Source of the DNA: Craspedostauros australis
Taxonomy: Eukaryota; Bacillariophyta; Bacillariophyceae; Mastogloiales; Achnanthaceae
DNA length: 64,000 nt
NCBI GenBank assembly: GCA_026770025.1
Contig: JAMXDE010000023.1
Location: 62,001 to 126,000, forward strand
Reading direction: 5' to 3'
Part shown: positions 43,248 through 51,795 of the stretch, one piece after another
Numbering within the stretch: the stretch's first letter is position 1
Layout: every line of letters begins with the position of its first letter
Program-made: the position numbers and the translations under genes
Notes under the pieces: generated by a model
The model's input: only the letters and a program-made list of their open reading frames with translations
Told to the model about the DNA's origin: nothing
Database searches by the model: none

Positions 43248-44669
43248 TCAGAACCCGCAATCTAACAAGGCTTTCTTGTTCTCGTAGGTGATGCCACTGC
43301 GCGCGTTGCACTGATAGTTGAGATTCAACGAGACGATGAAGTGGAACCACGCCGTCGGAAGGTAGAGCGCATCGCCGGCCTGCAGCACGACCTCGTTGAC
43401 CTTGGCCTGGGGGAAGTTGCCCGTTTGCCATTCATCCGGGTTGGACCAATCGATGGAGGAGTGCCGTCCCGATGGATGACCGCTGGGGTGCAGCATGAGG
43501 TTGCCGCATTGGTTGGGATGGGCCAAGATGTAACGCTTCTGACCCTTGAGGATGAAGATGAAGTTGCGCGACATGTCGTAGTGCGTGGCCGCGACGATGC
43601 CCTTCATCCCGAACCGGCAGTTAATGCCGCGCTCGTCGGACGGATCGACCATGAAAAACCCCGGCTGGGTGGGCACGAACATGGGGAGCTCGTCGTAGAC
43701 GTAGTCGGTCGGGCTGTTGTAGGCAGCGTTGAGGCGGAAGTACCAATGCTCCTTGTCGATGATGGGCTTGGCATCACCGTTGTCAGGGTCGTACTGTTCC
43801 ATGTCAATGGCCTTCTGGTACCAATCGGGAAAGCTGAGCTTGGTGATGTCGGTGGGCGGTTGCCAGCCAGGCGGCTTTTGCGAATTCTTGCGCAGCTTCC
43901 AGTACATCATCTGGTTGTTCTTGGAGTGCTCCGTCTTGTACTTCTTGTCCTGCCCCACGAGCTTGAGCATGTACTTGCGCGACGTCCAGCGTTCGGCCGT
44001 GCGCCAAATCTCATCGTGATTGCGAATGAGAAATGGAAGCTCGGCTTGACGGTACGTGAGCGCAGCATCGCGTTGCTTGGAATCCGACCAATCGAACCAG
44101 CACAGCCCCTGATAGATGCGATCAGGCACGCGCGTATCGTCAGCATTCCAATGCGACAGCACGTCGATGGCGCTCCACGCATACGGGTATCCCGGTGGCG
44201 GCGTCGCGGGACAATCGTGGATGTTGTAGGTCATGTCGCCGGCATCCATGGTGGGGATGGCATCGCCGAGGGCCCGTTCCTTGAGCACGTTATCGGTGGT
44301 TCGCTGTGGATCCACGCCGTGCGCCAGATCGAAGCTGTAGCGCAGGGATTCCTCGCGCGGGAACTCATCGGCAGGCCTGTGACGGTGCCGGTTGGGGAAC
44401 TTGTAGTCCTCCATGGACAGCCAGCTGTCGAACTCGTGCGCGTCTTCCTCGCCGGCCTTGCCGGGTCCGTTGCCAAAGTAGTTGCGATGATCTGGTGCTG
44501 CAACCGATCCGGTCTGATTGGCAGTGTCTTCCATGAGATAGTAGAACAGAATCATGCCAGCCAGAGCACCACCCAGCACGAGGCTTGGCCTGTCCTGGAT
44601 CATGGACAGAAGTAAGAGGCCGTTGTTGCGCCGTCCCAGCTTCACGCGCTTTCTTGTCATGGACACCAT
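43248..44669 (-). CDS. membrane-anchored JmjC/cupin oxygenase, FIH-like
   Basis: 473 aa. The N-terminus is basic and followed by one membrane helix (about residues 28-46, LVLGGALAGMILFYYLM), so the bulk is predicted lumenal (type II). The C-terminal half is a cupin_8/JmjC fold: iron ligands in VAATHYDMSRN (HxD), KGQKRYILAHPNQCG strand with the likely 2-oxoglutarate-contacting residues, and the distal His in TAWFHFIVSLN. The GDALYLPTAWFH segment is typical of FIH/JMJD5-type hydroxylases. The substrate is unknown; a protein in the secretory pathway is plausible given the anchor. A region of about 240 residues between anchor and core is not assigned. It faces DGAT2 across a divergent region. Confidence 0.85.
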   Translation of the reverse strand: MVSMTRKRVKLGRRNNGLLLLSMIQDRPSLVLGGALAGMILFYYLMEDTANQTGSVAAPDHRNYFGNGPGKAGEEDAHEFDSWLSMEDYKFPNRHRHRPADEFPREESLRYSFDLAHGVDPQRTTDNVLKERALGDAIPTMDAGDMTYNIHDCPATPPPGYPYAWSAIDVLSHWNADDTRVPDRIYQGLCWFDWSDSKQRDAALTYRQAELPFLIRNHDEIWRTAERWTSRKYMLKLVGQDKKYKTEHSKNNQMMYWKLRKNSQKPPGWQPPTDITKLSFPDWYQKAIDMEQYDPDNGDAKPIIDKEHWYFRLNAAYNSPTDYVYDELPMFVPTQPGFFMVDPSDERGINCRFGMKGIVAATHYDMSRNFIFILKGQKRYILAHPNQCGNLMLHPSGHPSGRHSSIDWSNPDEWQTGNFPQAKVNEVVLQAGDALYLPTAWFHFIVSLNLNYQCNARSGITYENKKALLDCGF

Positions 44670-45588
44670 GGCTGCTATCGGATGGTGCTGTTGTTTTTGC
44701 TTTCAGTGATGCGATCAGCCCTTCAAGCGGATGCGGATCTGGGATGCTCTCTGCGGATCCTATGGTCGGTCTCTGTGTTGATTACCCTGAACGACGACTT
44801 TGGTTCGGTCGAAGTCTCTCTCACCCTTGGATGGTTGATGGGTTGCTTCGATCTCGCTTCACTCTCTGTCGCTATGTTGCGACAGATTGGATTGTGAGAT
44901 GCGCGTCCTCGTATGGTCGTGTGGAAGTATCGCAGAGGATCCGTGACGGAGACAGAGTGGCTGGCAATCAGTCTCTGTATGTTGATTGTATTGCGGGAGT
45001 ACGAGTGTGGCCAGGTGACTTGCGGTCGGTCAGTCAGTCATTCATTCAATCTCATTCATTCAACGGACGATGCGCGATCATCGCAGTGTGCTTCTCTGGC
45101 GGACAGCAGTATTGTACAGTGCATCGATTGCCACGCAATGGATTGGCGGTTGAGACTCCTGAATTGTGACCTGATGGGTGCACCTTCGCGCCTCTGTCTG
45201 TGACCTGCAAGGACGTGTTTGCCACAGCAAAACAAGACGTGGTTGCTTCCTTGGTTGTTGTTGTGATTCTGGCGGGAAGTCGTCCAGACGTTTCAAAACC
45301 GTTATATCTGAGAAAGCGGCAATCGAGTGGATCGCATTGCTTCAATTCTCAGTTGACTAATGCGATCTACTGTCGCGCAATGACCTTCGTCATTTTTTCC
45401 TTTTTTTCTCAACGCGGATACCAACCCACACACGAAACACGGAATGAGATCATCGGCACTCATCCTGGGATGCAAGAGAGGACACACACAACAGAACATT
45501 GGATGAAGCACACGAGTGCTCGTTCAGAGAAGGCGAGAGGAATCAACGCAGCAAGCAAGCACAATAGAGAGAGACAGAGCTCGAAACG
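44670..45588. other. divergent intergenic region of the FIH-like and DGAT2 genes
   Basis: 0.9 kb. The open frames here have no family signature. Shared promoter region. Confidence 0.5.
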
Positions 45589-48378: not shown

Positions 48379-51300
48379 TTAAATCTCAAAATTCTGGACC
48401 GCACCATCCTTGTGGGAGATCTTCCAGGTCTTCACAGTCTTGCCACCCACCTTGATGTTCCAGACATGACCTTCGAACGTGTTCAGTCGTCTGTTTGTTT
48501 CCTCAAATCCAAGATCAGCCCAGAATTTGTCGCCGTAGTACAGTTTCGCAAATTTCATCAAGGGGTCCTTCTTGGTATTGGTGAAAGATGCAATGAGCTT
48601 GGATGTTGCGGTGACTTTTGTGGCTGCTGTATTTTTATTGTTCTTGGACTTGTCGCGCTGCGGCGCATCCGGGTATCCTTGGCGAGGACCTGCCAAGTCA
48701 AATTATGTTCACGGGATGTGCAATTGTGTGTGCGTATCAGCAGATTATGTTGGAACCGGCAATGGATAAGAAAGCACGAAGGTGAGTAGGGAGGATTAGG
48801 ATACAAAAGCGACACCATTGAACGGCTGGCCTTCGACTGCGCAGGCAAACAAACAAAAATGGAGCGAACACACTGCCACTTCGTCCACCAAAGATGTGAG
48901 CTCAGCGCGACAGGGCTCAGCCATTTCGTGTTGCCATACAGTGGCCATGGTCGTGAGCGCAGGGCAAATGGTTGCCATCGATTTCGTTGCATTCATCAGT
49001 GCAATCGTCACAACTAACCATACGGCGCAACTCACCATTCCAAACTGTGAGGCAAGAACGTTGTGATGCATTGGGTGGTAATGAAATGATGTGGTGAAAT
49101 GCATTAGGTTGCAGAAACATGGAGACACAGAGGTGGAGTCGGAGCATTCAATGTGAGAATACGAAACGCAAGGTATACACAGGGCTGCAATAAACGACCA
49201 TTTTCATCAAAACTTGGAGATGCATCAGTCCAATGCAGTATGAGTACTCACCCCACAGATTCGCCGCATACTTGTCACCCGCGAGAATTGGGCATGCCCC
49301 ATGCAAGGATGAGTCATCGAGCTGTCCATTGGGATGCTGCGAGTAGAAGAGGACTGCACGCGACGAATGAGGTCGGATAGACAGCTTTGTTCGGCACGTC
49401 ACAGTCTGCAAAGACGAAGTTGTATGTCGCGATTGGAGCATTGGATAGAGGTGGAGCGCGAGTGTACGTATGTCAGCGCATGAATGAGTGGATGAGCAAG
49501 CGGGTGGATGAGCGAACACGGTTGCCTCTTCTCGATCACAGTGGTTGGCGTCTTGCATTGTGCGAATCAGCGAACAGCCCAGGAATTCATCACCCGAATG
49601 CGCTCCTGTCTTCACAGCAGTTGTTGCTTCACAAACGGTGGATCGCAGAGCCTGTGAGCATTCCATCTCCCCGGCTTCTCTTCCTTCCATTTGGCACACA
49701 CAAAACGTACCAGGTCTTCTTCCCACGAACCTCGTCGAAGAACGGCGCCCTTCTCAGATGATCTCAGTTGTGCCAGAGCCTGCAACAATGAGCATAAATA
49801 GAGATGGAAGGGATGTGAGTTGTTTTGATGTACTCTATCGATCGTAGCATAGATCGGAGGATGATTGCATCGACTGGCGGGCACTGTGGACTTCTAGCGC
49901 CGGAGCACAGTGTACAACAGTGATGCGCAGGACACATGATGCTCTATCGACTTGCAAATCAATGCGCAGCAATATCATGCAAAAACAACGAAAGGTGAGC
50001 CACTTCTATCCATGGACTCTGAAAACTCACCTCTGCTCTGTTCAATGGTGCATCGACATCGATGGAATCTGCGTTTGTAAAGACAGTCTCTCCGCCATCA
50101 TTCTCGCCAAGGTCGGTCATGTACAGAAGGATAGTTGCAAAGCGGTTGGATCCCTTTCCGGAAGAATCGAAATCGTGATCCAATTGAAAGTCCTGTGGAA
50201 CGAAGTTATTTTCGAATGAGACGAACGTAAATCAAGAAAGTGAGTACGTACAAGTCGGCATGATGTATTACAGTACGCATGCACGCACCTGGCTCAGGCA
50301 CAGCCATCCATTGCAATACCAATGCACTCACCTTATCCTCCATGTAATCCAGGTGGGAATTGTACGCTTTAGTCTTGTTGTATCTGAGGATCTGCAATCC
50401 ATCCGCGTGGCTCGCGATGTACGAATCATACCCCAGAGCCGAGAAACAGCGTCTGAGAGTGGAATGAGGTGCCCATAAAGCAAAGTATCAGTGAATGAAT
50501 GAATGAATGAATGGGCGGGCGCATGTGATGATGTGTGTACGAGAGTGCAAACAGTGGGCAAACGAGAGCCAACACGCACAATTGCTGTGACGTATGGCAT
50601 CACACCACACGATGCAATCTCTAATCCGGTGTATTTCAAGATATCATAACGACAGTGATGATCATCATGATCATTTTGAATGCGCTGAAACGTACCTCTT
50701 GACTTTCATCGACGTGACTCCGTCAGTATCGTATCCACTCTCCGATGTGCGCTTTGAGTTGAGATTGTACCCTGACGCGCCGGTAGAACTTCTCTTGATG
50801 CGATGGCTCTCCTTGGTTTCTGCTATGGCCTGCTGGACCAGATCCGAACTCTCGTCTCTGGAAAAGAAGTTGAAGACATCGAACAGGCGCGGCTCAAGGC
50901 TGAGGACCTTGAGGTAGATATTCTTGCCCTCCGATCCTTCCACGTGATTGAGATTGAATATTTCTCCCACGAACTTTGGAGCGTACATGAACGGACGGCC
51001 AGCAGGCACTGCGTAGAAATGCGCAGCCGGGAGCAGATTGGGCTCCTGCTGGAAGGTCCTCATGATCTCCTGAAAGTTGCTCATCCTCTTGCCCTCTCTC
51101 CTGTGGAAGTGGCACGGCAAGAATTTCACATTATCGTCGTTGGGGTCAACGTTCGGAACGAGGTAATCATGATCGAAGAGGACTGTCGTTTTGTCCGGTC
51201 CCATGTCGCAGTATCCAAGGAAGCCGTTCTGCACAACGCCATCGGTCTCAACAGAGGAGCAGGTCAAAACGGCCCTGTGCACCATCAGCGTGACCATGGC

Positions 51301-51795
51301 ATCGGTTTGGAACTTGTCCATGACCGTTGGGCATCCGATGCGCTGGGACAGCGTCCAGTAGGCCTCCCACAAGGCATCGATCACATCAACGTCGGCTGTG
51401 CCGCAGGGATCGGGATCTCCGTTGCGATGGATGTGGATGGTGAGCTCCTTGCTGAAAGTTGCCACGTCGATCCCGATCGACCTGAACTGCGCGTCGAAGC
51501 GGGATCTGCAAGTCGCCTCGTTGGGTCCGACGGTGATGCGGTTTTTCTCCTCCAGCTTTCGATCTCCAGCGACGGCGGCTTTAGCGGAAGGGCTGCTCTG
51601 CTGCTGAGATCGCGGCGTGTTCTGTCCGAAGATCATGCCCTTGAAGGACGGGACAGACAGAGCCGCGATTGCCAGCAAGCATGGGACTGCCACCCACATA
51701 ACCATGAAGCCCATGGGAGTCTTCGGCTCCGGCTTGGTTTCCTCATTGCTGCTGCGCTTCGGCTTGGTCTTCTTGCTCTTCTTGTTGGACGCCAT
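48379..51795 (-). CDS. membrane-anchored prolyl 4-hydroxylase with a VHL-like C-terminal domain, seven exons
   Basis: Join of 51795..50696, 50452..50332, 50192..50031, 49779..49711, 49405..49252, 49044..49036 and 48689..48379 (641 aa); all junctions keep frame. It hydroxylates prolines using Fe(II) and 2-oxoglutarate. A single membrane helix (about residues 30-52) suggests an ER type II protein. The P4H domain spans about 340-550: iron ligands H400 and D402 (NSHLDYMED), H519 (SSLHGACP), and K529 (GDKYAAN) for 2-oxoglutarate. GETVFTNA and AVLFYSQHPNGQLD are family motifs. The 9-nt sixth exon completes AANLWVWNGPR. Residues 570-641 resemble the VHL beta domain: RRLNTFEGHVW aligns with VHL RRIHSYRGHLW. 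The Cys-containing region 85-335 is not assigned. It is head-to-head with the DUF1995 gene. Splice sites are read from sequence; no transcript seen. Confidence 0.88.
49036..49044 (-). other. 9-nucleotide micro-exon of the prolyl 4-hydroxylase gene
   Basis: On the minus strand the sequence CACAG|TTTGGAATG|GTGAGT has a perfect acceptor and a consensus donor. Between a phase-1 donor (G|GTGAGT at 49251) and the phase-1 last exon (CAG|GTCCTCGC at 48689) it encodes the rest of Val, then Trp, Asn and the first base of Gly. This restores the family motif NLWVWNGPR. Skipping it keeps frame but deletes V-W-N. Confidence 0.85.
50492..50513. repeat. (GAAT)n microsatellite in intron 1 of the prolyl hydroxylase
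   Basis: Five GAAT units within the first intron of the gene. Confidence 0.85.

Follow-up and report, generated by a model that had tools for sequence, protein, structure and literature searches.

A diatom prolyl 4-hydroxylase joined to a conserved C-terminal domain that probably belongs to the VHL-beta kind

In animals, the von Hippel-Lindau protein (VHL) is the reader that sends hydroxylated HIF to degradation. A gene in the 64,000-nucleotide stretch of Craspedostauros australis DNA analysed here (the window) raises the question whether a prolyl 4-hydroxylase (P4H) and a VHL-like reader of hydroxyproline can be parts of one polypeptide. The gene occupies 51795-48379 on the minus strand, and its six exons with GT-AG borders are spliced into a frame that is open throughout and encodes 638 amino acids. 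A sequence-only reading of this DNA had taken 48379-48689 on the minus strand as the last exon of a P4H gene encoding the motif RRLNTFEGHVW, which is borne out by the open six-exon frame and by the motif at 48460-48492. The residue numbers given at that time (609, 613 and 615) needed correction, and correspond to Thr606, His610 and Trp612 in the 638-residue model. The features of the gene are as follows.

Exon 1, 50696..51795, minus strand: start codon, basic N terminus, hydrophobic segment, N-terminal region and start of the P4H domain; open frame with a GT donor, and a homologous region in the paralogue (L040).
Hydrophobic segment, 51646..51711, minus strand: approximately residues 29-50, a possible signal anchor, by eye from the translation.
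Exon 2, 50332..50452, minus strand: HxD iron ligands His400 and Asp402 (50347-50355), aligned to HYD of Chlamydomonas P4H 2jig.
Exon 3, 50031..50192, minus strand: P4H core, within the PF13640 match over residues 386-535.
Exon 4, 49711..49779, minus strand: inside the P4H core; open frame, GT-AG borders and alignment to the paralogue.
Exon 5, 49252..49405, minus strand: P4H core with the distal His519 and Lys529 (49271-49303), aligned to SLHG...GDKW of 2jig.
Exon 6, 48379..48689, minus strand: P4H end (GPRQGYPD), Lys/Asn-rich linker, C-terminal domain and stop; AG acceptor and open frame, with the junction unspliced in the paralogue.
C-terminal VHL-beta-like domain (the tail), 48382..48597, minus strand: residues 567-638; 48% identity to the paralogue and an hhalign comparison with a VHL profile.
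RRLNTFEGHVW, 48460..48492, minus strand: residues 602-612, equivalent to Arg107-Trp117 of VHL in a gapless block alignment.

The enzymatic part of the protein is readily recognised. A Pfam scan of the whole protein lists one family, PF13640, with 43.6 bits (cut-off 27) and an E-value of 5.8e-11, and a PDB sequence search returned Chlamydomonas P4H (2jig) first (E 5.6e-18) and also human P4H-TM (6tp5; E 5.8e-7). In the alignment, the window P4H and 2jig have matching residues in the HxD, distal His and Lys columns, and these HxD...H iron ligands and the 2-oxoglutarate (2OG)-binding Lys are what we take to be the catalytic residues. As judged from its sequence, the protein is a prolyl 4-hydroxylase for which hydroxylation of proline is predicted. 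It probably belongs to the secretory pathway, where the hydrophobic segment recognised by eye would give it a type II membrane topology; the ER anchoring suggested by the sequence-only reading is likewise read from this segment. A second putative 2OG oxygenase is encoded on the same strand approximately 3.7 kb from the P4H gene (43248-44702, minus strand); this Cupin_8/JmjC protein (E 3.9e-22) has an N-terminal hydrophobic segment by eye.

The joining of exon 6 to this enzyme was read from the genome sequence, and intron 5, at 562 bases, is the longest of the gene. The last exon might accordingly be part of another transcript, and the fusion an artefact of the gene model. To be set against this is a paralogue: when the 74.8 Mb genome of the same organism (90 contigs) was searched with the tail, which yields lower bounds for copy numbers, at least one other copy was found, on contig 10 (48% identity over 63 residues, E 3.1e-14). 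At that place (G000:C10:1443078-1443854) the P4H core and the tail share a single intronless open frame of 296 amino acids, which the addition of one upstream exon by a GT-AG intron extends to 575. Since the paralogue encodes both parts in one unspliced frame, the tail is no splicing artefact, and we regard a faulty gene model as highly improbable. The two proteins are 52.0% identical in the P4H region (residues 291-536 of the window protein; 128/246), 34.5% in the linker (10/29) and 47.8% in the tail (33/69), while codon positions 1, 2 and 3 of the tail are identical at 61, 62 and 38%, as expected under protein-level selection. The paralogue frame, the identities and the codon-position pattern together indicate that the tail is a conserved domain of the same protein. 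On the genomic evidence, then, the P4H is joined to a C-terminal domain in one polypeptide, as had been claimed before with the proviso that transcripts might separate the last exon from the P4H domain, a concern that the unspliced paralogue answers. For this genome 30 PF13640 places were listed, and in a search reaching 1.5 kb around each of them the tail was present only at the contig-10 place (L007); the intron-split window gene is not among these 30.

The more difficult question is what the C-terminal domain is. It had been aligned by eye with the beta domain of VHL. Pfam listed no family for the window tail at E<=10 (matches weaker than about 0.1 are mostly removed by the HMMER filters), which leaves the tail short of the curated cut-off of the VHL family PF01847; NCBIfam likewise gave no family for it, and VHL was not among the matches of PDB sequence searches with the tail. 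A match of the paralogue tail to DUF7782 (Pfam E 0.16-0.23) was far under the cut-off and was dropped. Between Asn78 and Trp117 the tail aligns to human VHL without gaps, and the same spacing is found in the paralogue and in four bacterial VHL domains. Identity to human VHL is low (9/48 residues for the window tail, 8/48 for the paralogue). There are 11 columns that are invariant in human VHL and the four bacterial domains, and both paralogues keep Phe76, Asn78, His115 and Trp117 of these; as many were kept by 93 of 200,000 column shuffles.

Profile comparisons gave a signal that is consistently located in the tail. We compared the two tails by hhalign with a VHL profile of six sequences, comprising a VHL protein of the same genome (L001), four actinobacterial VHL domains and human VHL. 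This single comparison yielded an E-value of 0.0024 and a probability of 12%, with 50 columns in register; the corresponding E-values were 0.00087 for human VHL alone, 0.0027 for bacterial VHL alone and 0.34 for L001 alone. None of 300 column shuffles reached the tail-VHL score (maximum 16.0 against 20.5), and when windows of the two proteins were compared, the seven that cover the tail reached 20.5-20.9, compared with no more than 10.4 for the remaining 119 of 126. The reversed tail, used as a further control, still scored 17.1 against 20.5, over 8 columns. In a simpler, gapless VHL profile the window segment ranked first of the 51,838 stop-free 48-mers of the window, with 11.8 bits compared to 5.0 for the next, and its score was reached by none of 100,000 shuffles. 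The paralogue obtained 8.4 bits by the same profile, and L001, a true VHL outside that profile, 48.3 bits. An HMM built from the six-sequence alignment and run on 3,221 frames, by comparison, gave the window tail an E-value of 0.4 and did not list the paralogue tail at E<=5, which means that the tail is far from typical VHL. The similarity between the tails and the VHL profile is thus in register and clear of shuffles and of other parts of the proteins, yet it is not significant database-wide.

Structure prediction did not sharpen this picture. AlphaFold models of the tail were beta-rich but of low confidence, both from the single sequence (pLDDT 51) and with two bacterial VHL sequences added (pLDDT 52). 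In Foldseek these two models gave best E-values of 0.47 and 1.1, and VHL was absent among the best 50 of 181 and the best 50 of 198 matches, respectively. The Foldseek and VIA-align matches that were obtained (factor H binding protein, PilZ, viral proteases and others) were weak and varied, came from low-confidence models, and were taken as meaningless.

These data could also be read to mean that the tail is a small beta domain of unrelated origin, with a structural, dimerising or targeting role, in which NTFEGHxW resembles VHL by chance. The lack of a database match, the HMM E-value, the missing database-wide significance and the other folds given by the low-confidence models all fit such a domain, as does one result from elsewhere in the genome: among 73,386 48-mers from other loci, one scores 10.7 bits with the gapless profile, near the 11.8 bits of the window segment and above the 8.4 bits of the paralogue. 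This six-frame segment lies in L020 (G000:C1:2469516-2469848, minus strand), and it may not be a chance match itself, as it has a sub-threshold Pfam VHL match (E 0.018). It stands N-terminal to a P4H in the same 507-amino-acid frame, its hhalign E-values are 0.016 to VHL and 0.071 to the N-terminal type described below, and it was not listed by the VHL HMM at E<=5; from these sequence comparisons, L020 could be a further, very divergent VHL-P4H fusion, and it is left out of the count of such genes here. A chance resemblance also accords poorly with the conserved spacing, and with the separation of the tail from 119 of 126 hhalign windows and from all column shuffles of those comparisons.

Further evidence on this point comes from other oxygenases of the same genome, which carry VHL-beta-like domains at the N terminus. 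In the VHL HMM scan of the 3,221 frames, a locus on contig 9 (L026) was found with an E-value of 7.9e-4. There, the exon that carries a VHL-like domain, and whose start resembles a signal peptide by eye, lies ahead of an oxygenase exon (L053/L045; PF13640 E 2.8e-7), and four candidate GT-AG joins between the two exons keep the frame. With the contig-9 domain as query we found related domains at contig 10:731180 (L054; E 7.6e-4) and contig 5:1136508 (L055; E 0.12), which match each other at approximately 8e-21; five further weak matches of that search (L056-L060) had E-values of 0.7-1.2 over 28 residues. On contigs 10 and 5 the VHL-like domain shares an open frame with the first part of the oxygenase, HxD included, and the frames stop before the distal half. 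The oxygenase regions are related to that of contig 9 with 37% identity for contig 10 (E 1.5e-52) and 51% for contig 5 (E 3.7e-72). Pfam listed no family for the contig-10 frame, and a VHL match neither for contig 9 nor for contig 10. Contig 29 has a fourth copy (L067; E 2.0e-8 from contig 10), which is followed by another open stretch. A signal-peptide-like start was seen by eye at all four loci, and in three the domain lies ahead of a P4H-like 2OG oxygenase region. Compared together with the VHL profile, the four N-terminal-type domains reached a probability of 94% and an E-value of 1.4e-7 in hhalign; by this measure they appear as clearer VHL relatives than the window tail. A match of L010 to the VHL HMM (E 0.014) covered 13 residues on the strand opposite to its P4H and was rejected as chance.

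Adding the N-terminal-type domains and L020 to the VHL profile strengthened the match of the two tails to a probability of 51% and an E-value of 1.6e-4 over 17 columns; as hhalign E-values stand for single comparisons, this value becomes approximately 4 when multiplied by the 24,736 Pfam families. With this enlarged profile six windows over the tail scored 23.0-24.0 and the other 98 of 104 at most 12.2, which again argues against chance, and the score was reached by none of 200 shuffles; the signal comes from 17 columns in the region of the motif. When compared with only the N-terminal type, the tails gave 11% and an E-value of 0.0027 over 16 columns, and BLASTP of the window protein with those encoded at the contig-10 and contig-5 loci returned in each case a sole match between the motif regions of the two domains (E 0.54 and 0.93). 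Because the tail resembles both VHL and the clearer N-terminal VHL-beta-like domains of its own genome, we consider it likely that the tail belongs to the wider VHL-beta kind, and somewhat unlikely that it is an unrelated beta domain. VHL-beta-like domains thereby seem to be joined to 2OG oxygenases in two arrangements, N- and C-terminal, in this genome. The earlier proposal of a hydroxylase and a VHL-beta domain in one polypeptide holds for the joining at the window gene, where the identity of the domain is only probable, and as a wider idea it finds better support in the other genes.

Whether such a domain could read hydroxyproline depends on its pocket. Passages of PMC9528729 describe the VHL pocket as formed by Trp88, Tyr98, His110, Ser111, His115 and Trp117, with Ser111 and His115 bonding the hydroxyl, and part of PMC6650433 reports that in animal VHL Trp88 does not vary and that the pocket is almost invariably conserved. 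In the block alignment the window tail places Thr606, His610 and Trp612 at Ser111, His115 and Trp117, and threonine in place of Ser111 is also found in all four bacterial VHL domains. The three hydroxyproline contacts named by the sequence-only reading are therefore present, Ser111 as Thr. That reading did not mention two aromatic positions at which both C-terminal paralogues have lost the residue, with Ala at Trp88 and Ala or Gly at Tyr98, a loss that makes a VHL-style grip on hydroxyproline doubtful in the window tail and weakens its description as a hydroxyproline reader. A Trp stands one residue before the Tyr98 place (position 97) in the tails and might substitute for a lost pocket aromatic. 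The N-terminal-type domains differ, as all four have, by eye from the alignment, Trp at 88, Ser or Thr at 111, His at 115 and Phe at 117, so that a hydroxyproline grip is more plausible in them than in the window tail. A true write-and-read enzyme, whose tail binds 4-hydroxyproline specifically, as VHL does, and retains or releases the finished product, would account for the residues that bond the hydroxyl in VHL and for the retention of Trp88, Ser/Thr111 and His115 in the N-terminal type. It is at odds with the C-terminal paralogues, both of which lack Trp88 and Tyr98, and with the replacement of Trp117 by Phe in every N-terminal-type domain, and we consider it quite unlikely for the window protein.

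The reading that we favour, with moderate confidence, is a secretory-type P4H with a divergent C-terminal VHL-beta-type domain on a short linker, acting as an accessory binding module in cis. The tail domain would keep chains that are rich in proline, or hydroxylated already, close to the active site, and a chain held in this way could be modified at many sites. This would follow the accessory-domain logic that a passage of PMC9676403 presents for the peptide-substrate-binding domain of collagen P4H. As the VHL pocket has here lost two of its aromatic walls, the ligand of the C-terminal variant would more likely be a proline-rich chain in general than strictly hydroxyproline. A bolder and, in our view, unlikely idea is that secretory P4H-type enzymes of this lineage have repeatedly captured a VHL-beta hydroxyproline reader in cis, N- or C-terminally depending on the branch, giving write-and-read enzymes; VHL-beta would then serve the secretory pathway as a module that binds hydroxyproline or proline chains, in a role independent of both HIF and ubiquitin ligases. 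VHL-beta-like domains inside hydroxylases, in several genes and at two positions, would suggest that the link between this fold and hydroxyproline does not depend on oxygen sensing by HIF and may predate it; a hydroxylase with a VHL-beta-like domain in one chain would be a simple system in which to test that link.

VHL domains occur in other settings as well. In the same genome, L001 (622-2292, contig 28) combines in one frame a Pfam VHL beta match of 23.5 bits, a PUB domain of 40.9 bits and, by eye, a hydrophobic segment at the N terminus. The PUB domain has a role linked to p97, and it is possible that L001 links VHL-like recognition with p97. The actinobacterial VHL domains of L038 (667-1743), L034 (423-1169) and L039 (829-1719) are at the C terminus, where their partners are a protein-kinase-like frame and proteins in which a hydrophobic segment and a proline-rich linker were recognised by eye; a PF01847 match was found in 3 of 396 genomes of the actinobacterial phylum. 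In viral contigs, queries with the tail, the paralogue and the P4H plus tail gave 117, 0 and 40 pattern matches, none of which was confirmed by tblastn; NTFEGHxW codons gave no matches, and bacterial-type VHL queries 10 and 11, none confirmed. Phage records gave one weak unrelated match (E 0.8). A literature search returned no papers with 'VHL domain' and 'prolyl 4-hydroxylase' together, and no natural P4H-VHL fusion was found among the matches listed, a search with subscription papers and eukaryotic sequence databases outside its scope, so that the architecture may be on record. An engineered VHL-beta/F-box chimera is described in part of PMC13223302, and 'VHL' is absent from the main text of an oomycete domain-fusion paper (PMC2705460). 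There are precedents both for VHL-beta beyond animals and for its use as a fused module: passages of PMC7539508 describe a VHL-beta domain fused to SELENOM in Aureococcus anophagefferens, and a bacterial protein with a VHL domain is reported in PMC9002001.

Compared with the animal VHL beta domain (PF01847; human VHL), the tail shares the gapless spacing from Asn78 to Trp117 and keeps Phe76, Asn78, Gly114, His115 and Trp117, with Gly93 in the window protein only; Ser111 and Tyr112 are shared with change, to Thr and Phe. Phe76 and Trp117 are two of the four VHL core aromatics named in a passage of PMC3688787. The tail differs in that it has no Pfam match, has lost Trp88 and Tyr98, has Ile or Ala at Phe119 and is fused to its own hydroxylase. 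Unlike the VHL receptor of the E3 ligase, the window chain ends 26 residues past Trp612, which leaves no room for an Elongin C-binding alpha domain. With P4H-TM and Chlamydomonas P4H-1 the protein shares the catalytic domain, and with P4H-TM, as outlined in part of PMC7948501, an apparent short tail and one hydrophobic segment followed by the enzyme. It differs from both by its extra C-terminal domain, and from P4H-TM, in which an EF-hand domain is inserted in the catalytic domain, by having no EF-hand family among its Pfam matches, where PF13640 alone was listed and weak matches may be filtered. In the collagen P4H alpha subunit the accessory domain precedes the catalytic one and differs in kind, being helical. 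What is shared, according to a section of PMC9676403, is that a single chain carries a peptide-binding domain in addition to the catalytic domain. SELENOM is a thioredoxin-like protein of the ER. In its Aureococcus fusion, as given in the relevant passage of PMC7539508, VHL-beta is likewise a fused module in an alga, with a selenoprotein, and not a hydroxylase, as the partner.
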